A stretch of DNA of 33,754 nt from the IMG/VR virus record IMGVR_UViG_3300027749_000023, positions 1 through 33,754 of that record, one strand, 5' to 3'. The DNA comes from a virus. Of the stretch, positions 9,750 through 27,561 are shown piece after piece. The position numbers and the translations under genes are program-made. The notes under the pieces were generated by a model that searched no databases, was not told where the DNA came from, and saw nothing but the letters and a program-made list of their open reading frames with translations. How positions within the stretch are numbered: the first letter of the stretch is position 1; every line of letters starts with the position of its first letter.

Positions 9750-9816
9750 TAGTGTTTAACAAACAACGCAATTAGGGTTTGTCCTAGTGTGCAACACTAC
9801 ATTCTGTGACACACTA
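9750..9816. promoter_or_regulatory. ACACTA half-site array in divergent promoter region
   Basis: TAGTGT occurs at 9750-9755 and 9785-9790, and its complement ACACTA at 9794-9799 and 9811-9816. The middle two form a perfect TAGTGT-GCA-ACACTA palindrome. The array lies between the small regulator gene (minus) and the plus-strand gene at 9850, where both promoters must be. A repressor dimer binding here could control both directions. Confidence 0.55.
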
Positions 9817-9849
9817 CGAACTCTACAAACCACATTGAAAGGCGTGAAT

Positions 9850-10071
9850 ATGGAATTCGAGATAGAACTTTACGAATTAGACGATATGTTTAAATTCGTT
9901 GTCGAATGGGAATACGACCCCGAATACAGCCCTAAAGAGGGTCTATATAACAAATTCATCTGGTCTTTGCGCTTGGTTATAAATTCCAAGAATATAGACA
10001 TTACTGATGATCTTTCCGACAAAGACCGAGACTTAATTGAACAACAGATTGAGGAGATTTGCTGTGAGTGA
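9850..10071 (+). CDS. Small acidic protein, unknown function
   Basis: This 73-aa protein is strongly acidic (MEFEIELYELDDMFKFVVEW at the start, EEICCE at the end). No family is recognised. It is the first gene of the second plus-strand block. The start is fixed by a variant of the shared leader, ATTGAAAGGCGTGAAT, directly before the ATG at 9850. The next gene's GTG start lies inside its last codons, 8 nt of overlap, so the two are coupled. Confidence 0.7.
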   Translation: MEFEIELYELDDMFKFVVEWEYDPEYSPKEGLYNKFIWSLRLVINSKNIDITDDLSDKDRDLIEQQIEEICCE

Positions 10072-10405
10072 ATACTTTGAAAAAGCCAAATGGGAAGCCT
10101 TGCAAAGTCTGAATGATGATGATGTTATGGAGGCTATTGCTGGCTCGGTTGCCATTCCTCTTGCCATCAAACAAGGAGATTGGCAAGATGCTATGCAATT
10201 ACTTGCAAAGCGCATAGAGACAAAAACAATCCGACAAGCAGAATTTGCTACTCATGGATTTGTCAAGACCAACTGGATTGATGAAGATGATGAACTCAGA
10301 GAATTACGCAATATTTGGATTCTCAGGGATGCAACTGCAATGGCATTGGCTAAAGAACGTCAAGCCAAGATGGATGCACAGTTTCAACAAATGTTTGACG
10401 AGTAA
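10064..10405 (+). CDS. Small helical early protein with GTG start
   Basis: This 113-aa protein begins with GTG at 10064, chosen because GAGGAG lies exactly 7 nt upstream. It overlaps the preceding gene by 8 nt. The sequence is predicted almost wholly helical (SEYFEKAKWEALQSLNDDD, WILRDATAMALAKERQ) and slightly acidic. No family is recognised. It belongs to the early recombination operon. Confidence 0.7.
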   Translation: MSEYFEKAKWEALQSLNDDDVMEAIAGSVAIPLAIKQGDWQDAMQLLAKRIETKTIRQAEFATHGFVKTNWIDEDDELRELRNIWILRDATAMALAKERQAKMDAQFQQMFDE

Positions 10406-10410
10406 ACGCT

Positions 10411-10626
10411 ATGAAAATGAAAAACTCAGTAGGTCAAATCTTAGAGGAAAATCAAGATGAATATTTTTGTCAATTTTGTACAAAACCTAAGATTCAAACT
10501 GTTCCAATCTGCTCATGCTCAGGCTCTTGGTTCAAACTTAGAGACTTTGACTTTGATACCCAATTCTCTATTGCCCAACAAATTTTTAATTCAAAGAAAG
10601 GTATACCCGACACAAAAATTGACTAA
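10411..10626 (+). CDS. Small cysteine-motif protein, unknown function
   Basis: This 71-aa protein has CQFC near residue 20 and CSCSG near residue 35, a spacing compatible with a small zinc-binding knuckle. The C-terminal half is amphipathic. No strong Shine-Dalgarno is seen before the ATG at 10411, though it starts only 5 nt after the preceding stop and may be coupled. A perfect 22-bp palindrome follows its stop. Confidence 0.55.
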   Translation: MKMKNSVGQILEENQDEYFCQFCTKPKIQTVPICSCSGSWFKLRDFDFDTQFSIAQQIFNSKKGIPDTKID

Positions 10627-10629
10627 CCC

Positions 10630-10651
10630 TGAGTTTGTATATACAAACTCA
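10630..10651. promoter_or_regulatory. Perfect 22-bp palindrome
   Basis: The arm TGAGTTTGTAT (10630-10640) is followed directly by its exact complement, giving 22 bp without a spacer. No T-run follows in either direction, so an intrinsic terminator is unlikely. It lies 40 bp before a gene with its own leader, in the widest gap of this operon. It could be an operator or a resolvase/junction-like site. Confidence 0.55.
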
Positions 10652-10691
10652 ACCAACACCAACATTTCAACAACATTTCAAAAGGCTAAAG

Positions 10692-10886
10692 ATGCTAGAT
10701 TACGCACCAATATTGATGAACATAGAACAGGCAACTAAGCGCTTGTCCGAAAACTGTCTCGCAAACAAATTTGATGGGTTTTCCAAAGATATTAATCGGA
10801 TTCATTGTGAATTAACCCTGCTTTCAATGTGGGCAGTCAACAAAGAAGCACAAGAGATTTTTAAAGATATTTTTAAACAGGAGTGA
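10692..10886 (+). CDS. Small helical early protein, unknown function
   Basis: This 64-aa protein is predicted helical (MNIEQATKRLSENCLANKFD, ELTLLSMWAVNKEAQEIFK). No family is recognised. The ATG at 10692 follows a copy of the shared leader (TTTCAAAAGGCTAAAG). Its stop lies 2 nt before the annealing-protein start, and its last codons supply that gene's AGGAG. Confidence 0.65.
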   Translation: MLDYAPILMNIEQATKRLSENCLANKFDGFSKDINRIHCELTLLSMWAVNKEAQEIFKDIFKQE

Positions 10887-10888
10887 AT

Positions 10889-11452
10889 ATGAATCAAGAA
10901 CAGGTGTTAATGTTGCTCAACAAGAATGTAAATGAGCATACCGAGAAGAAAGCCAACCTAACCTATCTCTCATGGGCTTGGGCATGGGCTGAAGCACTCA
11001 AGGCAGACCCTACAGCCATCTACAAGGTAGAGATGTTTGGCGACAAGTGCTTCATGGACATCAACGGCACAGCAATGGTGTTCGTCACAGTCACTATGTT
11101 TGGCAAGCCAATGACTTGCCAACTTCCAGTCATGGACTATCGCAATAAAGCTATACCCAACCCTGACGCTTTTGCAGTCAATACCGCCATCATGCGGTGC
11201 ATGACTAAAGCATTGTCATTGCATGGTTTGGGTCTGTATATCTATGCTGGAGAAGACTTGCCAGAAGGTGATTCAGGTTCAGACATTGATGTAAACATGA
11301 TGATTGACCACTTGGCGGCTATTGATGCCGCATCAACTTTAGAGGAATTAAAGAATGTCTACTCTGTTGCTTACTCTGCTTGCGCTGGTGATAAAAGTTG
11401 GCAAAAGAAAGTGATTGATGCTAAAGAAAAGCGTAAAGGAGCATTGAAATGA
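10889..11452 (+). CDS. Single-strand annealing protein, DUF1071 type
   Basis: This 187-aa protein contains LTYLSWAWAWAEALKADP, then LPVMDYRNKAIPNPDAFAVN and AIMRCMTKALSLHGLGLYIY. These are hallmarks of the DUF1071 (SSAP, Rad52-like) recombinase family. It would anneal complementary single strands at ends resected by the YqaJ nuclease encoded three genes later. AGGAG lies 5 nt before the ATG at 10889; an in-frame GTG 6 nt earlier overlaps that site and is less likely. The stop overlaps the next start (ATGA). The C-terminus is basic and helical. Confidence 0.85.
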   Translation: MNQEQVLMLLNKNVNEHTEKKANLTYLSWAWAWAEALKADPTAIYKVEMFGDKCFMDINGTAMVFVTVTMFGKPMTCQLPVMDYRNKAIPNPDAFAVNTAIMRCMTKALSLHGLGLYIYAGEDLPEGDSGSDIDVNMMIDHLAAIDAASTLEELKNVYSVAYSACAGDKSWQKKVIDAKEKRKGALK

Positions 11453-11694
11453 ACTACGCACAAATGAAAAATGCACCAGCATTCCCAGTTTCTTTTAAAT
11501 GGGGCAGAGAATTATCTCAATATAACGGCATGACCTTGCGTGATTATTTTGCGGCAAAGGCTATGCAAGTTATTTTGCAAAGCCAATATGAAGATGGTAT
11601 TTATGTTGGTGATTTAGATAATGATTGTGAACAAGTGTGTGCGAGTTCTGCATACATCATGGCAGACGCAATGATGAAAGCGAGGGAAGCATGA
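11449..11694 (+). CDS. Small conserved phage protein, unknown function
   Basis: This 81-aa protein contains YNGMTLRDYFAAKAMQ, a phrase that recurs in many unnamed phage accessory proteins. The C-terminal part is helical (CASSAYIMADAMMKAREA). It overlaps both neighbours by 4 nt (ATGA on each side), so it is fully coupled within the recombination operon. No biochemical role is known to me. Confidence 0.75.
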   Translation: MNYAQMKNAPAFPVSFKWGRELSQYNGMTLRDYFAAKAMQVILQSQYEDGIYVGDLDNDCEQVCASSAYIMADAMMKAREA

Positions 11695-12185
11695 GCGATT
11701 TTGTACAAGTTCTTGAAAAACTAAGGTTTGACAAAGAAACAGGACAATTTTTTTGGGTTAATCCAAACAAACATCACTTGGATTTGATTGGGAAAATTGC
11801 TGGTTGCGCTCAAAAATCAAATTTAAATAAAAAATATTGGGTGATTAAGTTAAATGGGAAAACCTATAAAAGAGGGAGACTTGTTTATTTAATCACTCAT
11901 GGAAAGTGGCCTGAGCCTTGTGTAGACCACATAAATGGGGACTCACTAGATGACAGACCTGAAAATCTCAGACAGGCAACAGTAACAGAAAACAACTGGA
12001 ATCATAAATCTAGAAAAAGAAAAATAAATCTTCCGATGGGTGTGCGTGTTAATCCTGCTGGAACTTATTCCGCAAGAATATCAGTCAACAAAAAACAAAT
12101 TCACCTTGGATTTTTCAAAACTACAGAGGAAGCCTATTCTGTTTATCAGATGGCAAGAGAGGAAATGTATGGACAATTCGCCTGA
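11691..12185 (+). CDS. HNH endonuclease with C-terminal AP2-like domain
   Basis: This 164-aa protein has the HNH core VDHINGDSLDDRPENLRQAT in its middle, with the paired histidine/aspartate and downstream asparagine of the HNH_3 type. The C-terminal third (MGVRVNPAGTYSARISVN, then HLGFFKTTEEAYSVYQMA) matches the AP2-type DNA-binding fold seen in phage homing endonucleases. Its DNA is visibly more A-rich than the flanking genes, suggesting separate acquisition. It sits between the annealing protein and its exonuclease partner and overlaps both neighbours, so it has settled into the operon without breaking it. Confidence 0.9.
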   Translation: MSDFVQVLEKLRFDKETGQFFWVNPNKHHLDLIGKIAGCAQKSNLNKKYWVIKLNGKTYKRGRLVYLITHGKWPEPCVDHINGDSLDDRPENLRQATVTENNWNHKSRKRKINLPMGVRVNPAGTYSARISVNKKQIHLGFFKTTEEAYSVYQMAREEMYGQFA

Positions 12186-12798
12186 AGTTACTCAGCAATC
12201 TCCAGAATGGTTTAAACAGCGTTGCGGTAAAGCTACTGCATCTCGTATCTCAGACATTGTTGCCAAAACCAAGTCAGGCTACAGCACCAGTAGGGCTAAC
12301 TACATGGCTCAACTGGTAGTCGAGCGTATGACAAACCAAGTAGCAGAGTCTTACACCAATGCGGCTATGGAATGGGGTATCGAGAATGAACCTTTTGCTC
12401 GTGCCGCATACGAGGCTAAATCAGGCAATATGGTAGATCAGGTAGGTGCTATTGACCATCCACGAATTACTATGTCTGCTGCCTCTCCTGATGGCTTGGT
12501 TAGTGATGATGGATGCCTAGAGATCAAGTGTCCAAACACGGCAACTCATATCGACACAATTCTTGGTGATGAACCAGCAAAGAAATACTACGACCAAATG
12601 CAGTGGCAAATGGCGTGTACGAACAGAAGTTGGTGCGACTTTGTGAGTTTTGACCCACGAATGCCTGAACACCTGCAACTGTTTATCAAAAGAGTCGAGC
12701 GCAATGATGTTTATATTGCAGAACTCGAACAAGAGGTTATCCAGTTTCTCTCAGAAGTGGATGACAAGGTTAAAAAACTCAATGAAATTAAGGTGTAA
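12169..12798 (+). CDS. YqaJ-type recombination exonuclease
   Basis: This 209-aa protein begins at the ATG at 12169, inside the end of the HNH gene. Upstream in-frame ATGs would only read through the HNH gene. Motifs are [40 protein letters not shown] (D108) and LEIKCP (E118 and K120), the metal-binding and catalytic set of YqaJ/lambda-exonuclease-fold nucleases. It resects double-strand ends for the DUF1071 annealing protein. AGAGG a few bases upstream is supplied by the HNH gene's last codons. Confidence 0.92.
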
Positions 12799-12800
12799 AT

Positions 12801-13049
12801 ATGGAACAGCGTGACAATTCAGGTGTCTTGTTTAAGAACGACAAGAAGGAAACAGGCAACCAACCAGACTATAAAGGCAACATCACAGTTGATGGCAAAT
12901 CTTATTGGCTTTCAGCATGGGTCAAAGAGGGTAAATCAGGCAAATTCATGGGTTTAGCAGTAAGTCCTAAAGAAGAAGCCAATACTTCCTCACCCAAGAA
13001 GAAGCCCTCAAGTGGCTTTGACGACATGGACTCTGACATTCCATTTTGA
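12801..13049 (+). CDS. Small protein with SSB-like acidic tail
   Basis: This 82-aa protein has a short beta-rich core ([33 protein letters not shown]), a low-complexity linker and the C-terminus DDMDSDIPF. That end is nearly identical in style to the acidic tip of bacterial SSB, which docks partner proteins. It follows the YqaJ gene by 2 nt, so a single-strand-binding or SSB-mimicking role in the recombination cassette is a fair inference. It is much shorter than a normal SSB. Confidence 0.65.
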
Positions 13050-13111
13050 TGTAACACAACGGGGAAAGCGTAAGTGAGTACCCACTAACTTTTTAATTGA
13101 TAGGAGTTGAT

Positions 13112-13444
13112 ATGAGTTTAGATAACACACATTTTGGCGGCAGTGTAAAGAAGTTCTTTGACTTGCCAATCTTCAACAGGGTAAGGAATACCGACCCAGT
13201 AACCAGCTATGAAGCCGCTGATGCAGCCAAGGACTTGGCGGCAAAACACTTTGGCATCATTGTGGACTGTTTAAAGGCTCATGGGGCGCTTGGAAAAGAT
13301 GGGATAGCTAGGCATAGCGGATTAGACAGAAATCAAGTCTCACGCCGTTTAAACGAGTTGGAGAAGATGAACTTGATTGAGTTGACAGGCAGAACTGTAA
13401 AGTCTTCTGCGGGACGTAATGAACGTGAGTGGAGGGCGATCTAA
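13112..13444 (+). CDS. Winged-helix DNA-binding protein
   Basis: This 110-aa protein has a disordered N-terminus and then a winged-helix domain (HFGIIVDCLKAHGALGKDGI, LDRNQVSRRLNELEKMNLIE). The NQVSRRLNELEK segment looks like the recognition helix. It probably regulates phage or host transcription or assists replication. AGGAG lies 5 nt before the ATG at 13112. The gap upstream (13050-13111) contains an ACTAAC box paired with a near-complement as GTGAGT-ACCC-ACTAAC, so this gene may have its own promoter and operator. Confidence 0.75.
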   Translation: MSLDNTHFGGSVKKFFDLPIFNRVRNTDPVTSYEAADAAKDLAAKHFGIIVDCLKAHGALGKDGIARHSGLDRNQVSRRLNELEKMNLIELTGRTVKSSAGRNEREWRAI

Positions 13445-13563
13445 TGTGGGATGTACTGGTTACTTTTATGTTGATGATGTTTGGCGCTTTCGCTGTTATT
13501 TTCTTTGGCGCTATGTTAATTTTTGTCTTGTATTTACTTCAAAATGAGGCTGACTATGACTGA
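13444..13563 (+). CDS. 39-residue membrane micropeptide
   Basis: A short frame encodes MWDVLVTFMLMMFGAFAVIF, then further hydrophobic residues and an acidic end (LLQNEADYD). It is essentially one long or two short transmembrane helices. It starts on the last base of the upstream stop (TAATG) and overlaps the downstream start by 8 nt, which argues for real, coupled translation. The function is unknown; an accessory holin or superinfection-exclusion peptide is possible. Confidence 0.55.
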   Translation: MWDVLVTFMLMMFGAFAVIFFGAMLIFVLYLLQNEADYD

Positions 13564-13768
13564 AGAAAAATTCAATTTTGCTAACAAGTTGGCCACTATG
13601 CGTAAAGAACCAGTTGAATCTTTAAATCGCAAACGTCAGATTCAGTCAACTAATCCTTATCGAAACATTGTTATTGAAGAAATAGCTCAAGAAATTGAGA
13701 AAATGTCAGGATTTGGTAAAGATACGATTGACAGTTTGGCTATTTACATAAGAGGAATGAAAGAATGA
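13556..13768 (+). CDS. Small helical protein, unknown function
   Basis: This 70-aa protein starts MTEEKFNFANKLATMRKEPV and ends with an amphipathic helix (IEEIAQEIEKMSGFGKDTID). No family is recognised. The ATG at 13556 lies within the membrane micropeptide gene (8-nt overlap) and its stop overlaps the next start by 4 nt. Confidence 0.65.
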   Translation: MTEEKFNFANKLATMRKEPVESLNRKRQIQSTNPYRNIVIEEIAQEIEKMSGFGKDTIDSLAIYIRGMKE

Positions 13769-13941
13769 CAAAAAACGCATTTGATTGGCAAGGTGAACCA
13801 AGCATTTGGTCAAGAGATAAACAACTTAAAAAAATACTTCAAGGTCAAAACTGGGGTCGCCAAACGCAAGCTAAGATAAATCCTAATGAAAAACGTGAGA
13901 TTTTCTATTATTCAAAGGCTAAACTAAAGAATGATTCGTAA
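13765..13941 (+). CDS. Small basic protein, unknown function
   Basis: This 58-aa frame encodes MTKNAFDWQGEPSIWSRDKQ, then a lysine-rich helix and YYSKAKLKNDS at the end. It is linked by ATGA to the preceding gene and overlaps the next start by 11 nt. The tight packing and tryptophan-containing composition support a real gene. It is basic overall, so nucleic-acid contact is possible. Confidence 0.6.
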   Translation: MTKNAFDWQGEPSIWSRDKQLKKILQGQNWGRQTQAKINPNEKREIFYYSKAKLKNDS

Positions 13942-14125
13942 GATCAAAACTTTTTATGGGTCAAGAAGTGGTCAAAAAGGCAATAAAAGAACCACAATAT
14001 CTCATGGAGAAGCATGGTTATGTGAGAAGTGTGGGGAGGTGATTCCTTATGAACACCTAGTCCCCAAACACTTCTGTAAACGCATAATCAAGCCATTAAT
14101 ATATCCAATGCCGCCTGAGTCTTAG
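13931..14125 (+). CDS. Small zinc-finger-like protein
   Basis: This 64-aa basic protein carries CEKCGEVIPYEHLVPKHFC, a C-x2-C followed by histidines and a final cysteine, consistent with one zinc site. The N-terminus is lysine/arginine-rich. It is the last gene of the plus-strand block, and its 3' end overlaps the convergent endolysin gene by 38 bp. No terminator is seen between the two convergent operons. Confidence 0.65.
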   Translation: MIRKIKTFYGSRSGQKGNKRTTISHGEAWLCEKCGEVIPYEHLVPKHFCKRIIKPLIYPMPPES

Positions 14126-14699
14126 CAACCCTGTCATCCAAGCCATGAGTGCCGCCATTGATCTTCTTGGTCAAGCCTTCCATGTCATTCTTGTCAGCGT
14201 AGGCATTGAGCTTATTCTTGTCCCAAAACCAACCAGCAGACAAGGCTGCGTACTGAGGTGTAGCCACTAAGTCAGGTTCAGATACCAAATCCACACCTAA
14301 AGCCTCACCACAAGCCTCATAGTTGCTTTTACCAGTCAATTGAATCAAGCCACGACCACGATAATCCCAACCTTCTCCTGAGTCCTCATCGCCATTGCCC
14401 ATGCGACCCGAATACACCTTGTTGGCAATCTTTTGAGGATTACGCTCATAGTTTTGACCATCATTAATTGTTGGAAAGCGTTTAGGCCAAACACGACACA
14501 AAGAAGAAGCAGAATAGTTTAGATTCTCTTGCAATGCAGTAAATCCAGCACTTTCATGGGCGCATTGACCTAAGAAACAGGCTTGTCTCTCAGGAGTATC
14601 AATCCCAAACTTTTCAAAAGTCTCGTTGATGGCATCAATCCACTCACCCGCTTTGGCAGGTTTCATGTTTAAGGCTTTGGCTAGTTGCTGAACATTCAT
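14088..14699 (-). CDS. Endolysin, glycoside hydrolase family 19
   Basis: This 203-aa protein has the GH19 layout: the catalytic glutamate in GQCAHESAGF (E49), then GRMGNGDEDSGEGW and YRGRGLIQLTGKSNYEACGE. Phage GH19 enzymes cleave the glycan strands of peptidoglycan to release progeny. There is no signal peptide, so it depends on a holin. GAAAGG lies 6 nt before the start. It is the last gene of the minus-strand late region and its 3' end overlaps the convergent zinc-finger gene. Confidence 0.93.
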   Translation of the reverse strand: MNVQQLAKALNMKPAKAGEWIDAINETFEKFGIDTPERQACFLGQCAHESAGFTALQENLNYSASSLCRVWPKRFPTINDGQNYERNPQKIANKVYSGRMGNGDEDSGEGWDYRGRGLIQLTGKSNYEACGEALGVDLVSEPDLVATPQYAALSAGWFWDKNKLNAYADKNDMEGLTKKINGGTHGLDDRVAKTQAALDILMA

Positions 14700-14793
14700 G
14701 GGTTACCTTTCGTTTTAAGTTAAAAATTACGAATTGTCACAAATTAGAGATAGGATTTTACTTGGCAATAGTGCCATAACCAAGGGGAATATC

Positions 14794-15066
14794 ATGTACA
14801 AGATTGAGATTAATATTGCAGAGTGGGATTTTGGAGATGACTCAGTAACTATTGAGACAAATGATTTTGATAAGATTGCAATCATCCAAGAATTCATCGA
14901 GTTTCAGCAATTGCATGGATGGGCTGTTGACTATGACGTTACTGAAGAATATCTTTACAACCAATGCGACGAAGACGAAAGCGTCGAAGACGAAGAATCC
15001 GAAGAATACGAAATCGGAGAGATCGTAGAAGACGAAGATGGCGTAGTCTGGCAGCGTATGGCATAA
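14794..15066 (+). CDS. Highly acidic protein, lone plus-strand gene in lysis region
   Basis: This 90-aa protein begins MYKIEINIAEWDFGDDSVTI, and residues 58-84 are largely Asp/Glu (for example CDEDESVEDEESEEYE). The ATG at 14794 was chosen for AAGGGG 7 nt upstream. It is the only plus-strand gene inside 24 kb of minus-strand late genes, and an intrinsic terminator follows, so it forms a separate transcription unit. Strong acidity in a small phage protein suggests DNA mimicry, as in Ocr or anti-restriction proteins, but no homology supports that here. I saw no clear promoter in 14700-14793. Confidence 0.7.
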   Translation: MYKIEINIAEWDFGDDSVTIETNDFDKIAIIQEFIEFQQLHGWAVDYDVTEEYLYNQCDEDESVEDEESEEYEIGEIVEDEDGVVWQRMA

Positions 15067-15088
15067 TTTAAGTGCAGTTGTTACTTTT

Positions 15089-15115
15089 AGGGGGGTCTTA
15101 GGACTCCCCTTTTTT
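15089..15115 (+). terminator. Intrinsic terminator after acidic-protein gene
   Basis: Six G plus TC (15090-15097) pair with GACTCCCC (15102-15109), with one G-T wobble and a TTAG loop. An A-T pair extends the stem and six T follow (15110-15115). It ends the plus-strand unit and overlaps the stop of the convergent metallophosphoesterase gene. Confidence 0.85.
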
Positions 15116-16073
15116 ATACATCGTAAATCTTGCCTCTGAATTCAATCTTTCCTTCAGCCCATTTATGGACTAATTCAGGCCAAAGTAACTTTCCTTCATG
15201 GAATGTCAGTACAGCAAAACCTGATCGCCAATTGGTAGGCGAGTCTTCAAGATAGTTTATAAACTGCGCTCCATTAGTATCAGCTAACGTGCCTGTGTCC
15301 ACACCAAACCTATTTCCTTGGTAATCACTAAATGGTGTAACTTTAAGGCTGTGTAGATGTCCTGTGACGATAGAGACACCAGCATTGATTGTGTTGTTAT
15401 GTGTAGCGTGTACGCCACCTTTCCAACGATGTTTGACTACCACTTCATCTGTAGGCCAACAAGACCAACATGGATGCCATGTGGGGAAATGGTCTTTTAA
15501 AGCAAAACCTTTGACAAACTCATACTGCGGAGCATTGGCAGCTAGACGATTCTCAAACCTAGCATCATGGTTTCCCAATGTCCACACTAGGTTTACATTA
15601 CTTCTTGCTTTTCTGGCAGCATCTTCTATCTCGCCAAGCGCAATTTCACAGGCTTTAAGTTCTTGTATTACCGATGGCGTTGAATCCCATCCAATACGAG
15701 GGAAACGACTAATAGAAGCGCCATCAAATACATCTCCATTGGCAATGACAGCTTTGGGTTGAAACTCTTTAATCGCCCAAAGAAGACCTTTAAATGCTGT
15801 TGTATGGACTGAAGGCCAGAAGTGAGCATCACTAAAAACAAGAACAATGCCATTTTCAATCCCCAATTCTTTTCTAACAGGATTGTCAGGTTTTACTATA
15901 TTCTCAGCCTTTGCTCTAGAAGTAAGTGCAATCCCTGTTCTATCTTCAATTTCTTTACGCCGTTTATAAATTTGCCTCTCATTCATTTTGAGAGCAACAG
16001 CCATTTTGCTGGCTGATTTATGCGCATTCCAAATTTCAATAAATTCTTTATCACTAAATACAGGATTAGCCAT
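15114..16073 (-). CDS. Metallophosphoesterase with N-terminal HTH-like segment
   Basis: This 319-aa protein has the calcineurin-like set of motifs: FSDAHF (D82 and H84), NGDVFDG (D114), LGNHDARFENR (N168, H169 and D170), HATH near 223 and GHLH at 239-241. The first 50 residues (AHKSASKMAVALKMNERQIY then KRRKEI) look like a helix-turn-helix, suggesting DNA or nucleoprotein targeting. The substrate is unknown; nuclease or nucleotide phosphatase activity are both possible. GGAG lies 5 nt upstream. It sits between the spanin and endolysin genes, an unusual place for a nucleic-acid enzyme. Confidence 0.88.
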   Translation of the reverse strand: MANPVFSDKEFIEIWNAHKSASKMAVALKMNERQIYKRRKEIEDRTGIALTSRAKAENIVKPDNPVRKELGIENGIVLVFSDAHFWPSVHTTAFKGLLWAIKEFQPKAVIANGDVFDGASISRFPRIGWDSTPSVIQELKACEIALGEIEDAARKARSNVNLVWTLGNHDARFENRLAANAPQYEFVKGFALKDHFPTWHPCWSCWPTDEVVVKHRWKGGVHATHNNTINAGVSIVTGHLHSLKVTPFSDYQGNRFGVDTGTLADTNGAQFINYLEDSPTNWRSGFAVLTFHEGKLLWPELVHKWAEGKIEFRGKIYDV

Positions 16074-16130
16074 GACAACTCCACTGAAGTTGCCTGAAAT
16101 TAAATCAAATCAATGACAACAGCGTGAATC

Positions 16131-16613
16131 TTAACGTGATTTGTTCAAAGTTTGATAAACAGTGTTGTAAGCATCAATACAAGCATTCAATTGTCGGATG
16201 GCTTTGTCTCCATCGTCTGTGATGGCGATAAGATTTTTAGCAGTCTCTCGGTCAAGTTCGGCTGTTGCTTGAACGCTATCTCTGGGGGGAGAGGCGGCAT
16301 CTGCGGTGGTTGATACGGGGCAGACGGGGGCTTTGACAGGAATCCGCAACTTGAGAGAACCAGAGTCAATGTCAGAATTACGCTTTTGTTGAGCAAGTTT
16401 TGCATCATTGGTTGCCTTTATCAATTGTGTGGTTTGGTTATTTACAGCCGCAACAAGGGCTTGTTCTTTCTCCCTAGCAGCAGCATTCAAGACAGCTATC
16501 TCAGCCTGTTGACGGGCAGTTTCATCCTCACCACCCTTGTAATAACCACTACCAAAAGAACCTGAAATAGCCATCAGGATGCCCAATAGCACCCAAGGGT
16601 TAAATAGACTCAT
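16131..16613 (-). CDS. Rz: Inner-membrane spanin (Rz-like)
   Basis: This 160-aa protein has an N-terminal transmembrane anchor (FNPWVLLGILMAISGSFGSG) followed by a long charged coiled coil (ARQQAEIAVLNAAAREKEQA onward). It then has a region with two cysteines that can bridge. This is the i-spanin plan: it links to Rz1 across the periplasm and fuses the membranes at lysis. The holin-like gene stop overlaps its start (ATGA). The Rz1 frame lies wholly inside it. Confidence 0.85.
   Translation of the reverse strand: MSLFNPWVLLGILMAISGSFGSGYYKGGEDETARQQAEIAVLNAAAREKEQALVAAVNNQTTQLIKATNDAKLAQQKRNSDIDSGSLKLRIPVKAPVCPVSTTADAASPPRDSVQATAELDRETAKNLIAITDDGDKAIRQLNACIDAYNTVYQTLNKSR
16187..16408 (-). CDS. 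Rz1: Outer-membrane spanin lipoprotein (Rz1-like), nested in Rz
   Basis: This 73-aa protein is read in another frame entirely within the Rz gene. It has a lipoprotein signal (VILTLTLVLSSC, lipobox LSSC with the acylated cysteine at residue 21). A proline-rich segment follows (KPPSAPYQPPQMPPLPPE), the signature of Rz1-type o-spanins. The embedded arrangement matches lambda. It confirms a Gram-negative host with an outer membrane. Confidence 0.88.
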   Translation of the reverse strand: MMQNLLNKSVILTLTLVLSSCGFLSKPPSAPYQPPQMPPLPPEIAFKQQPNLTERLLKILSPSQTMETKPSDN

Positions 16614-16924
16614 TCCTTGGCTTCCAAAGGTGGTTCTTCATCCTTAGCAATAGCCTTAGAAGCGGCAGAAACAGCACTGCGACCTGCTACGCCACCCAAT
16701 ACACCCGTGATAAATACCATAATGGTACTAATTTGTTGTGTATATACCTTGTCTATGGGAGCCATTCCAGCCATAGGTTGAGTTACAAATGACACGCTAT
16801 ACAAGAACATTCCCATTGAACCCAAGAGAATCATCACCAAGGCAACGATAACTATTGCCCAAATCCTGATTTCAATGTCTTCAGCAGTCATTCGATTATT
16901 TTGTTTAAACGCAATGGTAGGCAT
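16610..16924 (-). CDS. Holin-like small membrane protein
   Basis: This protein of about 104 aa has two hydrophobic stretches: IWAIVIVALVMILLGSMGMF and, after a loop, ISTIMVFITGVLGGVAG. A charged tail follows (AIAKDEEPPLEAKE). Size, topology and place just before Rz/Rz1 fit a class II-type holin, which would open the inner membrane for the endolysin. I set the start at the ATG at 16924, coupled to the lipoprotein stop (TGATG); a GTG one codon earlier is possible. AGGAG lies 8 nt upstream. Confidence 0.75.
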   Translation of the reverse strand: MPTIAFKQNNRMTAEDIEIRIWAIVIVALVMILLGSMGMFLYSVSFVTQPMAGMAPIDKVYTQQISTIMVFITGVLGGVAGRSAVSAASKAIAKDEEPPLEAKE

Positions 16925-17103
16925 CACTTTTTCTCCTGTTCAGGTTTCACAAGTTGTTCGGGACAAGTACCAGAAGCGGTACAGATTGGGGGTTTGCATT
17001 CATCATTACTCCAATTCTTTGGGTCTTGGCATTTGTAACGAAATCGGTCTTCGCACCCTGTCAAACACAGGATTATCAGAAATAGTGCTAGGCTCTTTAT
17101 CAC
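16924..17103 (-). CDS. Small cysteine-rich lipoprotein in lysis cassette
   Basis: This 59-aa frame starts at GTG and encodes MIKSLALFLIILCLTGCEDR, a clear lipoprotein signal with lipobox LTGC. Four further cysteines follow (at about residues 25, 36, 41 and 47). AAGG lies upstream at slightly long spacing. Its first 98 bp overlap the end of the upstream membrane-protein gene in another frame, and its stop overlaps the holin start. It may act at the outer membrane during lysis or in superinfection exclusion; the role is unknown. Confidence 0.7.
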   Translation of the reverse strand: MIKSLALFLIILCLTGCEDRFRYKCQDPKNWSNDECKPPICTASGTCPEQLVKPEQEKK

Positions 17104-17386
17104 GATTCTTTTTCCTTTCAGAACTTTCTATCTGTCTACGCAACTTCTCAACCTTTTCAACTTGTTGCTTAACCTCATTCTTGGCTTCAAGTGTCTCCAA
17201 TAACAGCATACCCATGATTGGCAACAAAAATACGACAAGTACACAAGCAGCAATCCATCCCACTACGTTCTCCCAATCTTGCTTATGAACCCTATCAGAA
17301 GCCACGAATATAGGAGGCAGAGGATAGTCACTAGAAGATACACTTGCTTTTCGTGTAAAAGACGCTCCTTTTCCTTTCGTTGCCAT
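17006..17386 (-). CDS. Single-pass membrane protein, late region
   Basis: This 126-aa protein has a basic N-terminus (MATKGKGASFTRKASVSSSD), one transmembrane helix (VVGWIAACVLVVFLLPIMGM) and a charged coiled coil (EAKNEVKQQVEKVEKLRRQI). It overlaps the upstream gene by 124 nt and the downstream lipoprotein by 98 nt, each in other frames. Such compression, with three overlapping membrane genes in a row, supports genuine coding. It probably belongs to the lysis or membrane-penetration set. Confidence 0.7.
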   Translation of the reverse strand: MATKGKGASFTRKASVSSSDYPLPPIFVASDRVHKQDWENVVGWIAACVLVVFLLPIMGMLLLETLEAKNEVKQQVEKVEKLRRQIESSERKKNRDKEPSTISDNPVFDRVRRPISLQMPRPKELE

Positions 17387-17949
17387 GTTTCTGCATCCCG
17401 ATTTTTCCTTGCTTTCTCTTGTTCTCCAGCAATGATGTCCCTCATCTTGAATACCTCTGAATACAAAGCACCCATCTCAGGGGGTGATTGGTAAACCATG
17501 CACTCACGAATCTGAACTACCAACCTCTCCATCTCTTGCTGTGCCAAAACCCTCTTTAATGCCGCCTCCATCAAGTTAGCATTTGGGTCATAGACTGTAC
17601 GAGATTTTTCTTCTTCTTGCCTGATGTGTTCATTCAATTGCTCCTGCAACCTGAAGAACTCAGTCAGATTCTTTACTATTTCTGCTTTAACCTCAGTTTC
17701 GTCAACAGCAACGTAATCAGATTTTTTAGCCCTTGCCACAGGTTGAGAAGACTTGATCTCAGGAGCAGGACTAAATAAGTTGCGTAGGAAGCCAAAGATT
17801 CCTTTAACTTCCTTGCCAATGGCAACAACATCATTAGCAGTCTTTTTGATTGAGACAAACTGCTCTTTAGCTTGTTTATAAAGGTCACAGCCAGCTTGGA
17901 TGTTTTTGACCAAGCCAGCCGCAAGAAGACAAATAGAGATTGGGTCAAT
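17263..17949 (-). CDS. Membrane-associated late protein with probable ATT start
   Basis: This protein of 228 aa has a coiled-coil middle (FFRLQEQLNEHIRQEEEKSR) and a C-terminal transmembrane helix (VYLLVTILCLLYSWLLIGFI). No ATG, GTG or suitable start is found near the upstream stop. The best ribosome-binding site, AAGGA, sits 6 nt before an ATT codon at 17949, giving a start like (M)DPISICLLAAGLVKN. A TTG at 17913 would shorten the protein to 216 aa but lacks a Shine-Dalgarno. The role is unknown; its position after the internal virion proteins suggests a virion or lysis function. Confidence 0.65.
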   Translation of the reverse strand: MDPISICLLAAGLVKNIQAGCDLYKQAKEQFVSIKKTANDVVAIGKEVKGIFGFLRNLFSPAPEIKSSQPVARAKKSDYVAVDETEVKAEIVKNLTEFFRLQEQLNEHIRQEEEKSRTVYDPNANLMEAALKRVLAQQEMERLVVQIRECMVYQSPPEMGALYSEVFKMRDIIAGEQEKARKNRDAETWQRKEKERLLHEKQVYLLVTILCLLYSWLLIGFISKIGRT

Positions 17950-17958
17950 TTTGTATCC

Positions 17959-20064
17959 TTATTGAATGCCACGGGCTTTTAATTCTGCTTCGATGTCTTG
18001 CAATGTAGGCGCACCTATTTCAGTTGAAGTTTGTTGTTGAGGTTCTTGCGGTGCAGTAGTTTCCATCATTGGCCCTGCTCTTGCGCCTAAACTTGCTGCA
18101 CCTTTTGATAAGGTAGCCAAAGCATTAGTAGCTTTTTGAGTCATTGTTTTAGTTGTAGCTAAATCAATCATTGCTTTGCGATATTCGGGATTAAAAATAA
18201 CATCAGCAAAATCAGCAGGACTTGCTACTAAATTACGGATAAATGGAACTAATTCTTTTGCCGCCAATCTGGTTTGAGCGCCACCACCAGTAGCACCAGT
18301 AAACGCATAGGCTTCACCACCAGTCATTCCAGCCATTTGTGGGGATTCGCTAGACAAAACACGACTCATCCAATTCATTGCAAGTCTTGCATCGTTAGCA
18401 TCTTTTTTATTTGGAAATAAATCAGCAAACTCACCACTTTTTTTATTCATCTCAGTTAAAGCAGTTTTGATATTAAAAGTTGGGTCTGTTGCAGCACCAC
18501 CTGTTACTTGTGCTGAACTCAAAACATCATCAAATTTTGAACGTCGAATAGAGTTTAAAACCTCAGTAACTTGTGGAGTTGGGTTATTTTGCATGACATC
18601 AATCAAAAATTGTCTTTGAGAAGATGGCATTTTTTTTAAATCTGAAATAACTTTTTCAGGAACAAGATCGGTAACATTTGCTACGTCAAATGCTTTTGTC
18701 AAAGGTCTGTCAGCAAATACTTCAATGCGAGCAATGTTTTCTTTAAATTTATCTCTTGCTTCTACAAGTTTGTCAGCGCCAGCAACTTTGTTGTCAATTG
18801 CATCATCTAAAGATTTTCTAAAGCCATTTAAAACAGCTAAAGCAATACCCTTTGCCTGTCCAACAGCAACACCTTCAAAGATATTTCCCTTGCCAAAATC
18901 TGCTGTTCCAGAGTAAGCCGCTTCTCCCCATGTAGACAAATTCTTTTGAAGTCTATTTATATCGATTTTTAATGTTGATGCAGGAACAGCAGGAATTACT
19001 TGTACAGAAGCAGGTTGACCAGCCGCATTAAGAATAGTTGATGGAATATTTTGTGCAGGAGTTGCAGGAGTTACATACTCGTCAATAATCCGTTGCATTG
19101 CATTTTTTACAGGGTCTAATGCCTTTACTTCTGGAGGAATTTCACCTAATTTACTTGTAATTGCATCTACAACAGGAGATGTATCAATTAGTCCACCAGC
19201 ATTTTTTGCAGCATTAAAGTCAGTTTTAGCATCAGACCTTAACTTTGAAGATAAAGATTTTCCATAGTTATTAAATGACGATACAACGGCTTGTGTAGTT
19301 TCTGTTGGAGTTAATGTTTTACCACTTGCCTTATTAAACAAGTTTGTCAAATATGATTCAAGATCGTATGCTTGTGCTTGTCTAAATTCAATAGGTTTTT
19401 GACCTGAAACTGGAGTACGTTCTATTCCTGCTTCAGTAGCTAATTGAGGTCTACTTAAACCAAGTTCTCCAGCAGTTAATCGACCAACATCAGCTAAAGA
19501 TTGTGTTTCAGCAATAGATGGAAACAAACCTTCTGGCTTTGTCATTTGACCGCCAATAGTTTTTAATCCACCTTTTACAACATAAGGAGATGCACCAATT
19601 GCTAATTGAGCTAATGGGCTTTCAGGGGCAACTTGTTGACCAAGAAGTCCTGTCGTACCAGCAACACCAAATTCACCTGCCAAACCACCTATAGATGGCT
19701 TAAAAAGTCCTGGAATTCCAATAGCAGTAGATAATGCTGCAGGCGCACCAGCAGAACCAAATTCATAAGCACCACGATAACTAGGAATTGATTGAACATT
19801 AACACCAGTTAATTTATTTAATGCCTGAGCAATTCCTGTACTAGAAAAAGCATTTGGGTCTTTGCTTTCTTTTAGATAATCATATAAATTACCCCATCCA
19901 CCAACCAAATCAATAACGCCTTTTGTTGAGCCTTTAAGCAAAGATGTTGTGAAGTTTTTAACTTCATCGAGAGTAGTTCCTTTGTCAAAAACAGAACCTG
20001 TGGATGTGGTTTCTCCACGTTTTTGAAGTTCTGCTTCAATGTCGGCTAATGAATATTCTGCCAT
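17959..20064 (-). CDS. Large internal virion (ejection) protein
   Basis: This 701-aa protein is Ala/Gly/Ser/Thr-rich with glycine-rich hydrophobic stretches (SAGAPAALSTAIGIPGLF, GASPYVVKGGLKTIGG) and long helices. It is the last and largest of three consecutive genes of the type that encode podovirus ejection proteins. The N-terminus (SLADIEAELQKRG) and the C-terminus (TLQDIEAELKARG) carry nearly the same motif. No lysozyme active site was seen. Assignment is from order, size and composition. Confidence 0.65.
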   Translation of the reverse strand: MAEYSLADIEAELQKRGETTSTGSVFDKGTTLDEVKNFTTSLLKGSTKGVIDLVGGWGNLYDYLKESKDPNAFSSTGIAQALNKLTGVNVQSIPSYRGAYEFGSAGAPAALSTAIGIPGLFKPSIGGLAGEFGVAGTTGLLGQQVAPESPLAQLAIGASPYVVKGGLKTIGGQMTKPEGLFPSIAETQSLADVGRLTAGELGLSRPQLATEAGIERTPVSGQKPIEFRQAQAYDLESYLTNLFNKASGKTLTPTETTQAVVSSFNNYGKSLSSKLRSDAKTDFNAAKNAGGLIDTSPVVDAITSKLGEIPPEVKALDPVKNAMQRIIDEYVTPATPAQNIPSTILNAAGQPASVQVIPAVPASTLKIDINRLQKNLSTWGEAAYSGTADFGKGNIFEGVAVGQAKGIALAVLNGFRKSLDDAIDNKVAGADKLVEARDKFKENIARIEVFADRPLTKAFDVANVTDLVPEKVISDLKKMPSSQRQFLIDVMQNNPTPQVTEVLNSIRRSKFDDVLSSAQVTGGAATDPTFNIKTALTEMNKKSGEFADLFPNKKDANDARLAMNWMSRVLSSESPQMAGMTGGEAYAFTGATGGGAQTRLAAKELVPFIRNLVASPADFADVIFNPEYRKAMIDLATTKTMTQKATNALATLSKGAASLGARAGPMMETTAPQEPQQQTSTEIGAPTLQDIEAELKARGIQ

Positions 20065-20073
20065 GACAAACCC

Positions 20074-21462
20074 TTATTTTTTGTAAGTTTTTTGCAAATC
20101 CAGCAACTCTTGTGTTGTCATTTGATTCAATGGTTTTGTAGTTGTCGATATACTTCCAACAACAGGTATTGTTGGCACATAACCATTTAATGACTTGTTT
20201 TTTCTAGCATAGTCTTCCATTCTCATGGTTTCATTAACAATATCTTGATTTTTCTTTGTCATAAAATCAATTAACTGTTTACGAGCCAAGGCACTATTTT
20301 CAAGTTGCGGAACTAAACTTTGAATAAATTTACGATCTTCATTAGAAAAACCAGCACCAAGTCTTCCTCCAAGTGTAGAAAGAATTACATCGCCAGCAAC
20401 TTTTTGATAATTTTCTGATGATGCTAGTTTTTCAACATCTTTACCACTTGCTAAACCTAAACTTGCAAGCAAATTTGTAGCCCCAACTCGACCAGATGCA
20501 AATGAACCACTAATCAAATCATTTTGATTCAGTTGATTTAATTGCTTTAAAGAACCTAATGCGGCAAGAGAGTTATCACGTTTGTCTCTAGCGGCGGCAA
20601 CAGCTTTGGCATCAAGTTCTCCAAGACCTTTAGCAAACGCTTCTTCACCCTTAACATCTACGCCTACACGAACACTCATGGCTTTGGCGGCGGCAAGTTT
20701 GATTTCGTCATCAAATAATGATTTATTTATTTGAGCAACTTGATCTTGACTGTAATCACCATATTTTGCATTAGCGCCAAAACCCAATTCAACTGCTTTT
20801 GCAAGGAAGTTAGAAGTTGTTTTAGTTTGTTTATCAATTGGTTCAAGTTCACCTTGACCTGATTGCCACTTAGTAACGCTTTCAGGAGTATATTTACCTG
20901 ATTCAAGCAATTTCATTCCTTGAGCAGATTTAGGAGTGTAGTAAGACTTAACCAATTCAGGATTAGAAGCAACTGCTGATGCTTCAGCTTGACTTAAATT
21001 ATGTTGAGTCATTAATTGCTGAGTTATATCTTGCAATCGTTGTTGAGTAGAGCCAATTTGACTTGCTTCAGCAAAACTCTTTGATGCTGTTGCTCTTTCT
21101 TGTAGTTGCTTAGTCATTGATTCTTGCAATGTTTTTGCTCTATCAGCCAAAGATGTTGCTAATTGAATATCGCCAAATTGCGATGCCTTTTGAGCACCTT
21201 GCATGATTGAAGCAGGGTCATTCATGTCAATTTGACTAGCAATCTGATTGCGCTGTGAAATTAACTTTAACTGAGGGTCTTCTCCACCTAAAGCACGACC
21301 AATAGCACCACCAATCTGATTACCTGCAACACTTGCGGCTACACGTTGAGCAGTACCCCAAGGGGCTTGTTCCATTTGAACAGCCCTTTCATAAGCCTGT
21401 TGTTGCAAGGCTTGTTGGTATTGCTCAGGGGTTTGAAAAAGTCCACCAATATCTGTTGCCAT
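20074..21462 (-). CDS. Internal virion protein, helical
   Basis: This 462-aa protein is Gln/Ala-rich and almost wholly helical (YQQALQQQAYERAVQMEQAP, SMTKQLQERATASKSFAEAS). It has a small hydrophobic Gly-rich stretch near residue 50 (VAGNQIGGAIGRALGG). Together with its two neighbours it probably forms the ejected internal proteins that line the DNA channel at infection. It lies 9 nt from the next gene. There is no enzymatic motif. Confidence 0.6.
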   Translation of the reverse strand: MATDIGGLFQTPEQYQQALQQQAYERAVQMEQAPWGTAQRVAASVAGNQIGGAIGRALGGEDPQLKLISQRNQIASQIDMNDPASIMQGAQKASQFGDIQLATSLADRAKTLQESMTKQLQERATASKSFAEASQIGSTQQRLQDITQQLMTQHNLSQAEASAVASNPELVKSYYTPKSAQGMKLLESGKYTPESVTKWQSGQGELEPIDKQTKTTSNFLAKAVELGFGANAKYGDYSQDQVAQINKSLFDDEIKLAAAKAMSVRVGVDVKGEEAFAKGLGELDAKAVAAARDKRDNSLAALGSLKQLNQLNQNDLISGSFASGRVGATNLLASLGLASGKDVEKLASSENYQKVAGDVILSTLGGRLGAGFSNEDRKFIQSLVPQLENSALARKQLIDFMTKKNQDIVNETMRMEDYARKNKSLNGYVPTIPVVGSISTTTKPLNQMTTQELLDLQKTYKK

Positions 21463-21472
21463 GATTTACCCC

Positions 21473-22531
21473 TTAAAACAATGTTACTGGCATACCATCA
21501 GAAAACCCTGTGGTATCTCCATAAGAAAACGCATTTGTATTTTGAACATACGGAGGATTAAAGAAATTTCTTAATCCACTTTGGAACTGTTGATTTTGTC
21601 CTAAACTACTTAATCCTGATTGCAACAAAGATGATGGTGAGTTTCTAGCCGCTAACAAATTGCTTTGAGCCGCCGCTAATCCACCAGTCAACAATGATTG
21701 ACCTGCATTAGCTCCATAAGCCGATGCTTGACCACCTAAACCAGCACCCAATGTCAATGGTTGTTGACCTAACTGTTCAATGCCTTGAGAAGCACCTAAA
21801 TATCCTTGGAATGGAGCAAGAGCGCCAGTCTGACCAGTCTGATACTGACTCAATAAATTAGAGCCACTACCAAGCAAACCAATGCCGTAATTGACGTTCT
21901 GCTGACCAGCTTGTTGTGCATTAGCCGCCAACTGAGCATCCTGTTGAGCCTGTGCGTTGTAATAGGCTTCCATCTCAGGTGTAGTAGCACCCAAACCTGC
22001 CGCACCACTTGGGCGTGTACCTGTAGCGCCTACAGACAATCCACCACGACCTTGCTGGAATAACTGGTTCTGCAAGTTAGCCATGCTTCTTTCACGGCTA
22101 GGAGCAAGCAAATCCTGTTGTTGTTGCATATATTTAGCCGCAACTTCTTGAGGACTCTGAGCAAGGTACTGCTGACCCAAGCCAAACAAGCCTGTAGCCG
22201 CTTGAGACAATGGTTGATACTGTTGTTGCGCTCCCTCTGCTTGAGTTAAAGCATTGCCAGTTAAACCCATCAAACGATCTTGATAGGCTCTCATCTCAGG
22301 AGTTAAGTTGTATCCTGCACCCGTCAAATAACCTTCAGGAGACATTTGGAAGTTAGAAGAACCAAATCTTGTAGTTATACCTACAGGTCTAAACTTCTGC
22401 GCTTCAGCCGCCAATCTAGCCGCCGCCATTTGGTCACCAGCTTGATTAGAGTAGCCTTGTTCTGCTCCTCCACCAAATAAACCACCAATAATTGATGGCG
22501 CTACTGCGCTAATTATTGAACTAAACGGCAT
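21473..22531 (-). CDS. Internal virion protein, Gly/Gln/Ala-rich
   Basis: This 352-aa protein starts with a hydrophobic, glycine-rich segment (FSSIISAVAPSIIGGLFGGG) that could insert in membranes, as seen in the smallest ejection proteins of T7-like phages. The rest is rich in Gln, Ala, Gly and Leu (QQYQPLSQAATGLFGLGQQY, SGSNLLSQYQTGQTGALAP). It overlaps the cupin-like gene by 11 nt. Function is inferred from position and composition. Confidence 0.6.
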   Translation of the reverse strand: MPFSSIISAVAPSIIGGLFGGGAEQGYSNQAGDQMAAARLAAEAQKFRPVGITTRFGSSNFQMSPEGYLTGAGYNLTPEMRAYQDRLMGLTGNALTQAEGAQQQYQPLSQAATGLFGLGQQYLAQSPQEVAAKYMQQQQDLLAPSRERSMANLQNQLFQQGRGGLSVGATGTRPSGAAGLGATTPEMEAYYNAQAQQDAQLAANAQQAGQQNVNYGIGLLGSGSNLLSQYQTGQTGALAPFQGYLGASQGIEQLGQQPLTLGAGLGGQASAYGANAGQSLLTGGLAAAQSNLLAARNSPSSLLQSGLSSLGQNQQFQSGLRNFFNPPYVQNTNAFSYGDTTGFSDGMPVTLF

Positions 22532-22829
22532 ATTCTTCCCCTTTAATCAAAATCTCATCCACTTTAGATGGGTCTTTCTCATCTGTGGCATGAATACAAA
22601 ACCAAACACAATCAGTAATCGCCTTAACGCCATGAATCAAACCAGCCTTAATCTCAAGGCAAGCAGGAGCATTAACAATGTCAATCTCGTCACCACGCAA
22701 TACAGCAACCTTACCTTCAGCCAAGATAGACAAATGACTGAAGTTATGAGTGTGTTTAAGAATGGCAGTACCCGCAGGAAATCTAGCTTCCTTTGCATAC
22801 AGTCCATCAGAAAAGTAATGTGTAATCAT
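22521..22829 (-). CDS. Cupin-fold small protein
   Basis: This 102-aa protein contains HTHNFSHLSILAEGKVAV and later AGLIHGVKA, the two conserved cupin motifs with metal-binding histidines. It lies between the second fibre gene and the internal virion genes. A catalytic or a purely structural role, for instance a small tail-associated barrel, are both possible. It starts 2 nt after the fibre gene's stop. Confidence 0.75.
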   Translation of the reverse strand: MITHYFSDGLYAKEARFPAGTAILKHTHNFSHLSILAEGKVAVLRGDEIDIVNAPACLEIKAGLIHGVKAITDCVWFCIHATDEKDPSKVDEILIKGEEYAV

Positions 22830-22831
22830 GT

Positions 22832-24400: not shown

Positions 24401-24409
24401 GTTATTCCT

Positions 24410-25969: not shown

Positions 25970-26631
25970 TAGACCGCCACAAAAGCATCGTTTTCAGGAG
26001 AACGAGCAAGTTCCAAAGCAATCATGTCTGACATTGCAGACTTGAACAAGGCATACGCCTCAGAACTGCTTAAACCGCCATCCTCGCCACGTTCAACCAA
26101 TGCCCTAGCATAAGCACCCATAACAATAGGCTCTTTTGCCAACAAGGTTGTATCTGAATCATTAACAAAATCAGTTTCAGGAACAATCAAACTGAATCTA
26201 AGGTTATAAACACCATCAGGAACAGGCCAAAACTTGACCTTCAAATCACCATTTGTATCTACGCCTTGTACTGTGTAGTACATAGGAAGATTTTGAATAG
26301 GTGTGGGAACTGTGTAGTAGAGAATGTCGTGTTGGTCATGTGCTAATGGAGTTAACTGATAGTAACGTGTAGTGTTAATAACATCCATGGTTTTAAATCT
26401 AGTACCAGCACCTGTAAGAGAATATTCACCTACTTGACCAGTAACAGTAGTAATAGTCACAGCTTTGTTAAAGGCATCCCAATCATAAGCATCAGCTACT
26501 TGACGCTTTGTGTCATTGATGTACTTGCCAATAAGGGCTGAATAAGTTGTTCCACTAACAGTAGTAACTACTGGTTCACGCAAGCGAACCAATACATCAT
26601 TAACTAAACTGAGATAGGTAGATAGAGCCAT
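25969..26631 (-). CDS. Head-tail adaptor / tail tubular protein
   Basis: This 220-aa protein starts MALSTYLSLVNDVLVRLREP. It contains KYINDTKRQVADAYDWDAFN, GVYNLRFSLIVPETDFVND and AYARALVERGEDGG, a pattern of the SU10/T7 gp11-like adaptors that connect portal and nozzle. Its order directly before the nozzle gene agrees. It is coupled to both neighbours by TAATG overlaps. Confidence 0.8.
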   Translation of the reverse strand: MALSTYLSLVNDVLVRLREPVVTTVSGTTYSALIGKYINDTKRQVADAYDWDAFNKAVTITTVTGQVGEYSLTGAGTRFKTMDVINTTRYYQLTPLAHDQHDILYYTVPTPIQNLPMYYTVQGVDTNGDLKVKFWPVPDGVYNLRFSLIVPETDFVNDSDTTLLAKEPIVMGAYARALVERGEDGGLSSSEAYALFKSAMSDMIALELARSPENDAFVAV

Positions 26632-26930
26632 TACTTCTTCCCTTTATTTCTTGACGAAATCGCTTTAGCTTTTGCCTTTGCGTCTGCCTTAGATGAAGCA
26701 CCCCATGCTTGCAGAGAAAGTAGCAACCTTGTTGGTTTGCCATCCTTCATCTCTGCACCTTCCATGTTGCCCATCCTAGCGAGAAAAGAAGCTCGTCTTG
26801 GATTGTCACCCGACTTTACGGGTGGCTTGAGGTTTCCCCCAGTTTCTGCATTATAAGATGATCTACCCTTGGCATTCAAGCCGCCTTTTGGATTTTGACC
26901 AGCTTTTGTTTGCCAAGTAGGAGATTTCAT
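26631..26930 (-). CDS. Small basic protein, DUF6321-like
   Basis: This 99-aa protein has KSPTWQTKAGQNPKGGLNAK and KPTRLLLSLQAWGASSKADA. This Gly/Lys-rich pattern recurs in unnamed phage head-region proteins (DUF6321-like, from memory). It is strongly basic and may bind DNA in the head. I chose the ATG at 26930, coupled to the upstream stop (TGATG), over a TTG one codon earlier. Confidence 0.7.
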   Translation of the reverse strand: MKSPTWQTKAGQNPKGGLNAKGRSSYNAETGGNLKPPVKSGDNPRRASFLARMGNMEGAEMKDGKPTRLLLSLQAWGASSKADAKAKAKAISSRNKGKK

Positions 26931-27258: not shown

Positions 27259-27267
27259 TACGACTCC

Positions 27268-27552: not shown

Positions 27553-27561
27553 GGTTTACCC

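Follow-up and report, generated by a model that had tools for sequence, protein, structure and literature searches.

Several described systems each resemble part of the locus reported here. Small, acidic phage proteins that mimic DNA and have host targets are established, T7 gp5.9 and Ocr being the cases treated in the excerpted text of PMC7617805. In T4, the MotA box (consensus (a/t)(a/t)(a/t)TGCTTtA) lies near -30, 12 +/- 1 bp from the -10 element, where it replaces the -35 element; T4 has nearly 60 such middle promoters (PMC2988021, in the sections drawn on here). The locus analysed here comes from a 33,754-base virus record, which we studied at its full length and refer to as the window. 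Like T7 gp5.9 and Ocr, its product is a small, highly acidic phage protein and, by analogy, plausibly targets host DNA-binding proteins; unlike them, it has no sequence or fold match, and its acidity lies in a variable tail behind a predicted beta-beta-alpha domain. Like T4 middle promoters, the leader of the gene has a box near -30 that appears to substitute for the -35 element. Unlike them, the box is TGTCA and not TGCTTtA, and the window has one such site against nearly 60 in T4; a MotA-type middle promoter was rejected on the sequence of the box.

The locus also recalls morons and prophage accessory loci (STMMW_20121 of ST64B, as given in the part of PMC7067206 used here) in having its own promoter and terminator, in running antisense to lytic genes, and in being sporadic in one lineage; the promoter and terminator are recognised by sequence, from the conserved leader and the terminator. 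Unlike morons, the cassette is fixed in the window's lineage and carries a specialised, conserved leader, and a PF00589 integrase is present in 0/14 records (window included; the records may be fragments), so that the prophage-accessory sense of the term fits poorly. What is new, as far as sequence comparison can tell, is a dedicated leader accompanying a family of acidic proteins. Comparison of the relatives shows that this leader, a short ORF (conserved N-terminal domain, variable Asp/Glu tail), and a terminator form one unit, which in the window and with its neighbours reads as follows.

14088..14699, minus strand: GH19 endolysin, divergent neighbour (PF00182, E 2.8e-14; phrog_181 endolysin, E 9.8e-90)
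14734..14739, plus strand: activator-like box TTGTCA, placed near -29 to -24, where it would stand in for a -35 element; spacing fixed in relatives
14751..14756, plus strand: -10 element TAGGAT (TANNNT in relatives); T1, A2, and T6 invariant in 33 leaders
14763..14776, plus strand: 5' hairpin TGGCA-ATAG-TGCCA, where the transcript presumably begins; pairing kept across relatives
14782..14789, plus strand: Shine-Dalgarno sequence AAGGGGAA, read directly; purine-rich site kept in relatives
14794..15066, plus strand: acidic-protein gene, 90 aa (ATG at 14794, stop at 15066; dN/dS about 0.12)
14794..14934, plus strand: predicted N-terminal beta-beta-alpha domain, residues 1-47 (AlphaFold2; nine invariant residues in 116 sequences)
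14935..15063, plus strand: acidic tail, residues 48-90, 44% D/E, terminal motif EYEIGEIVEDEDGVVWQRM
15089..15115, plus strand: intrinsic terminator, 9-bp stem (15089-15110) plus T-run; kept in relatives
15114..16073, minus strand: metallophosphoesterase, convergent neighbour (PF00149 above cutoff; phrog_221, E 3.9e-30)

The acidic ORF is a real gene whose N-terminal domain is, on the pattern of substitutions, under purifying selection: the median dN/dS of this domain against the window is 0.12 (53 pairs), and the value over 2240 pairs of 82 ungapped sequences is 0.15. A chance ORF was rejected in view of this strong selection and because contigs L002 and L003 each encode a 100% identical protein. 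A TTG at 14734 offers a mechanical alternative start; the start conserved in relatives is ATG 14794. The sequence-only reading had credited the gene with its own ribosome-binding site and terminator, and both stood, since the Shine-Dalgarno sequence and the stem with its T-run are kept in relatives. The terminator folds with -16.7 kcal/mol (z -2.70). A terminator scan of the window is weak when taken alone (2 terminator-like sites against 1.4 expected), and conservation in relatives therefore carries the weight. The protein has a net charge of -27 and a pI of 4.05. The Asp/Glu-rich tail noticed earlier proved to be a property of the whole family: residues 48-90 contain 44% D/E and 2% K/R in the window, and in 142 relatives, the tail (30-99 residues long) has a median D/E content of 50% and a minimum of 37%.

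Structure prediction had been proposed by the sequence-only reading as a way to judge a likeness to Ocr/ArdA-type mimics. A first AlphaFold run with 60 sequences was poor (pLDDT 58). With 116 sequences, AlphaFold2 placed strands at residues 2-7 and 17-22 and a helix at 25-41, the block pLDDT being 76-87 over residues 1-40, and we assign the N-terminal domain a predicted beta-beta-alpha arrangement with moderate confidence; the overall pLDDT is 73, the pTM only 0.39, and the tail is poorly predicted. The fold search gave no PDB match at E<=0.001. Two structures, a designed EEH mini-protein (Z 3.9, rmsd 2.2, 38 aligned) and protein G (Z 3.3, rmsd 9.3, 55 aligned), were set aside as sharing a common arrangement. 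Foldseek in BFVD retrieved A0A6J5LQI9 (probability 1.00, 43% identity, E 1.5e-3), an uncharacterised 74-aa protein of an uncultured Caudovirales phage that is likewise without known function and is probably a member of the same family.

Searches of Pfam, PHROGs, PADLOC, and PDB sequences assigned the protein to no known family. For 60 members at E<=1, there was no credible match and none to Ocr/ArdA-type anti-restriction proteins in PADLOC, PHROGs, or Pfam; the best hits (E 0.046 in PADLOC, 0.0079 in PHROGs with unknown function, 0.059 in Pfam) are scattered and unrelated. Nor did the family, PADLOC, PDB-sequence, and fold searches connect it with any named DNA mimic or inhibitor. Across 50,697 phage records, tblastn found zero matches for the window protein or the relative L081 at E<=10 and zero for the diverged proteins L456 and L433 at E<=1, and 0/192 candidate stretches from bacterial and archaeal species genomes were confirmed as relatives. 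We noticed no publication on the family in a literature search that was not aimed at proving absence.

Relatives are plentiful in IMG/VR. A single-protein query returned 108, of which 80 were kept, and further queries widened the set, relatives being encoded in at least 269 stretches by the profile query (80 kept). From 249 loci we took 145 non-redundant copies preceded by 80 nt or more of sequence (four loci had no usable start, and others were dropped as duplicates or as too short upstream); 33 leaders that are mutually <75% identical serve as representatives. The order in relatives is the TGTCA box, exactly 11 bp, TANNNT, and then the hairpin. All 80 non-redundant first-round leaders have GTCA-N11-TANN[AT]T with identical spacing. 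Of the 145 leaders, 120 match perfectly, 23 deviate at one position and 2 at two; this count is less independent than the first because the spacing was set at 11 bp and the best-scoring anchor was then taken. The window holds one plausible leader copy and one other, chance-like match. A standard sigma-70 promoter scan reports nothing at this site, and there is no -35 element at the usual spacing. In the E. coli genome, phoA (TTGTCA-N11-TATAGT) and pstS (CTGTCA-N11-TATTTT) have the same geometry. From this likeness and the resemblance to T4 middle promoters, we infer that an activator at -29 replaces the -35 contact.

The activator might be PhoB of the host, TGTCA being the promoter-proximal half of a pho box, in which case the acidic protein would be made in phosphate-starved hosts. 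The leader shares with the PhoB-activated phoA and pstS promoters both the half-site and its 11-bp distance to the -10 element ([CT]TGTCA-N11-TANNNT), the flanks fit (A at -3 in 28/33, then Y and A after TGTCA), and strict spacing between pho box and core promoter is reported in the excerpt of PMC10294691. A proteobacterial host is weakly hinted at by a 77% identical Sak protein on a 3.7-kb contig from a Burkholderiales MAG (L507, JAFMJY010000194.1). However, the available passages of PMC4415409 define the pho box by two tandem units, and the leader, unlike PhoB-activated promoters, lacks the second: a full pho box was looked for and not found, and the 33 representatives show no enrichment of the upstream half-site at the 11-bp register (mean 2.27/7 matches, most other offsets giving 1.2-3.0). 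We consider PhoB a candidate, but control by it unlikely.

The hairpin begins 4-7 nt after the -10 element in 32/33 representatives (at 0 in one), a distance by which we place it at the presumed start of the transcript. Comparison of the leaders indicates that it covaries, the sequence of the stem changing while pairing is kept. A stem of at least 4 pairs is present in 145/145 leaders, in 27 variants, and when the 3' arms were exchanged among 12 distinct types, 0/5000 permutations reached the pairing of the true combinations. The folding of single sequences is not significant, with z 0.27 for the window and -0.82 to 0.27 for four leaders, no better than shuffles; the minimum-energy fold of L158 is without the hairpin, only 11/33 leaders individually pass p<=0.05, and Rfam gives only a 12-bit match against a cutoff of 86. 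Alternatively, the inverted repeat could be the DNA site at which a repressor binds (an operator of the acr-aca type), since covariation with repressor specificity would likewise be expected of a palindrome with constant spacing to the -10 element. Yet many stems contain G.U pairs (TGCGGC/GCTGCA in 10/145, TGGCG/TGCCA in 17/145), which suit RNA but are out of place in a DNA palindrome, and the unit contains no regulator gene, the terminator following directly after the ORF. We therefore regard an operator as distinctly unlikely. An acr-aca cassette as such was rejected, there being no adjacent HTH aca regulator.

Used alone as a search pattern, the leader retrieved 103 stretches from IMG/VR. 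Among the 80 listed of these 103, it precedes a small, very acidic ORF in 77: 65 are family members by HMM, one is cut at the contig end after the first codons, and 11 are other acidic ORFs; the remaining three are chance-like. Many of the 80 matches overlap contigs that were already known, and the numbers are thus not independent events. The 11 other ORFs fall into groups whose N-termini have diverged and are unrecognisable when compared to that of the window, and hhalign between the N-terminal parts of three leader-sharing groups did not show homology (E 0.017, 0.81, and 0.00039; probabilities 1, 0, and 15). Nevertheless, the four of the 11 whose composition was examined have 44-57% Asp/Glu and 16-25% Trp/Tyr/Phe after residue 40, and the seven whose downstream sequence was examined are each followed by a G/C-rich, T-ending, terminator-like stretch. 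In the collected loci, 106/106 distinct matches to the composite leader precede the acidic family or diverged relatives of the L357/L390 type. One diverged cassette (L439:4226-4290) lies directly behind what appears by eye to be the 3' end of a tRNA gene.

The arrangement of the window itself explains why the gene looks solitary. An exact 127-bp terminal repeat (1-127 and 33628-33754) indicates that the record closes into a circle. Once it is closed, the minus-strand block (14088-33754 plus 1-4864, with terminase, portal, and capsid genes inside) measures about 24 kb, and the claim that the acidic gene is its only plus-strand gene holds: by our own reading, it is the sole credible one. A minus-strand gene with collagen-like Gly-X-Y repeats, tail-fibre-like in our reading, spans the contig ends. 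The idea of an insertion against the late operon has to be modified. Minus-strand late genes do lie on both sides, but the plus-strand early block (9787-14125: Sak annealing protein, HNH, YqaJ exonuclease, and SSB) ends one gene away, and only the GH19 endolysin separates it from the acidic gene, hence the solitary appearance. The position is the early/late junction and not deep within the late block. An Rz spanin is also among the genes around the acidic gene.

The same cassette is found whole at several genomic positions and in no fewer than two phage lineages; some copies run antisense to late genes, whereas others come last after the early genes or follow the capsid gene. Among the 80 non-redundant first-round loci, the upstream neighbour is a minus-strand endolysin of M15 type in 65 (the type is our own reading; the L204 copy matches endolysin) and of GH19 type in five; downstream, 65 have a 77-aa minus-strand ORF and 73 the phosphoesterase. 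Two exchanges in this neighbourhood may be recorded. The endolysin slot (14088-14699 in the window) alternates between GH19 and M15 types among relatives, and the 77-aa ORF between the acidic gene and the phosphoesterase has been lost in the window (15067-15113) and in several others. With its 94-bp divergent intergenic region in common with the endolysin and its convergence on the phosphoesterase, the gene could be a regulator of lysis or late functions, either as a divergent switch or through antisense control of the phosphoesterase transcript. We think this very unlikely, because the unit is intact without an adjacent endolysin in L204 and L221, where it directly follows early plus-strand genes, and without the phosphoesterase in L155 and L158, and because its terminator prevents a long antisense RNA. 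In records tested for the metallophosphoesterase, 11/20 have it, and those of L147, L155, L158, L171, and L253 do not. In four phage records with a relative of the phosphoesterase, no obvious counterpart of the acidic gene is annotated alongside.

The L147, L155, L158, L171, and L253 copies belong to the second lineage, mostly of larger records, in which the gene immediately follows the major capsid gene in the same orientation. Such a location would suit a structural or decoration protein of the virion, a role we nonetheless hold to be highly improbable: only 2/65 of the testable close capsid loci in that lineage carry a recognisable copy, the cassette keeps its own promoter and terminator even behind the capsid gene, and in the window's lineage, the gene lies a long way from the head genes, on the strand opposite the late block. 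The 65 capsid loci are those of 80 with at least 700 nt downstream (15 were set aside), and at least two of the 63 "absent" loci (L357 and L390) contain this leader with a diverged acidic ORF behind it. The capsid of L158 shares 72% identity with that of Planktothrix phage Pag-Yong1 and 64% with that of Pelagibacter phage HTVC023P; in the cultured relatives of this lineage and their neighbours (Pag-Yong1, HTVC023P, HTVC027P, DSL-LC04, CRP-901, and QDWS535), the acidic gene is absent behind the capsid gene. Three records under differently named cyanobacterial hosts (OQ594354.1, OL906435.1, and PP438419.1) agree in length (65,014) and in their capsid match and are possibly one phage. Tails in this lineage (L158:5001-5387, L176:5001-5438, and relatives) contain tandem aromatic/acidic repeats of the YDEETDAWYWYDEE type.

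The window's lineage behaves differently. An independent query with the phosphoesterase gave 80 loci, and the acidic gene is present in 65/65 of those with at least 900 nt downstream (7/15 of the shorter ones, which were set aside). On this sequence survey, the gene is fixed in the window's lineage, where it behaves as a core gene, and the cassette is sporadic in the second, as expected of a moron. The comparison with a moron drawn by the sequence-only reading thus survives for the separate promoter, leader, and terminator, the antisense orientation, and the second lineage (2/65) but not for the window's own (65/65). The same reading had named conservation in all relatives as a structural protein as evidence against it; conservation was found in the window's lineage, whereas nothing shows a structural role.

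Taking these observations together, we favour, at roughly 45%, a self-contained, monocistronic phage expression cassette for an independently expressed host-takeover or counter-defence protein that would act through its acidic tail. Host RNA polymerase and an activator on the -29 box, with no -35 contact, would transcribe it apart from the early and late programmes. The hairpin at the 5' terminus may shield the short mRNA from decay that depends on the 5' end; protection of mRNA by a 5' stem-loop against RppH/RNase E is established (PMC3997798, in the portion of the text used). The protein would then be made in quantity, and its tail would bind a basic or nucleic-acid-binding host protein, with host takeover or counter-defence as the outcome, possibly by DNA or RNA mimicry. 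We suggest such binding from the constant acidity of the tail and from the analogy with T7 gp5.9 and Ocr. The N-terminal domain might provide dimerisation or the choice of target. Against this proposal stands the 65/65 fixation in the window's lineage, which is unusual for a specialised counter-defence gene.

A wider proposal, which we put forward tentatively, is that the leader and not the protein defines an undescribed class of phage genes. In such a class, a promoter with an activator box, strict 11-bp spacing, and a covarying 5' hairpin would always deliver a small protein with a tail rich in Asp/Glu and Trp/Tyr, whereas its N-terminal part would diverge or be replaced. Small phage proteins mostly change too quickly for detection by protein homology. 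The regulatory leader is more constant than the protein and so retrieves proteins with no recognisable N-terminal domain (the 11 among the 80 listed of 103). If the proposal is correct, the leader could serve as bait for a hidden host-takeover or counter-defence family across uncultured phages and would bring to light a host activator that is widely shared and exploited by these phages. Should the proteins be host-takeover or counter-defence factors, it would make many of them accessible by sequence in abundant aquatic phages that lack cultured relatives, and the strict spacing between box and -10 element turns the identity of the host activator on which these phages depend into a testable question. 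The cassette recurs, at different places, in many uncultured freshwater phages.
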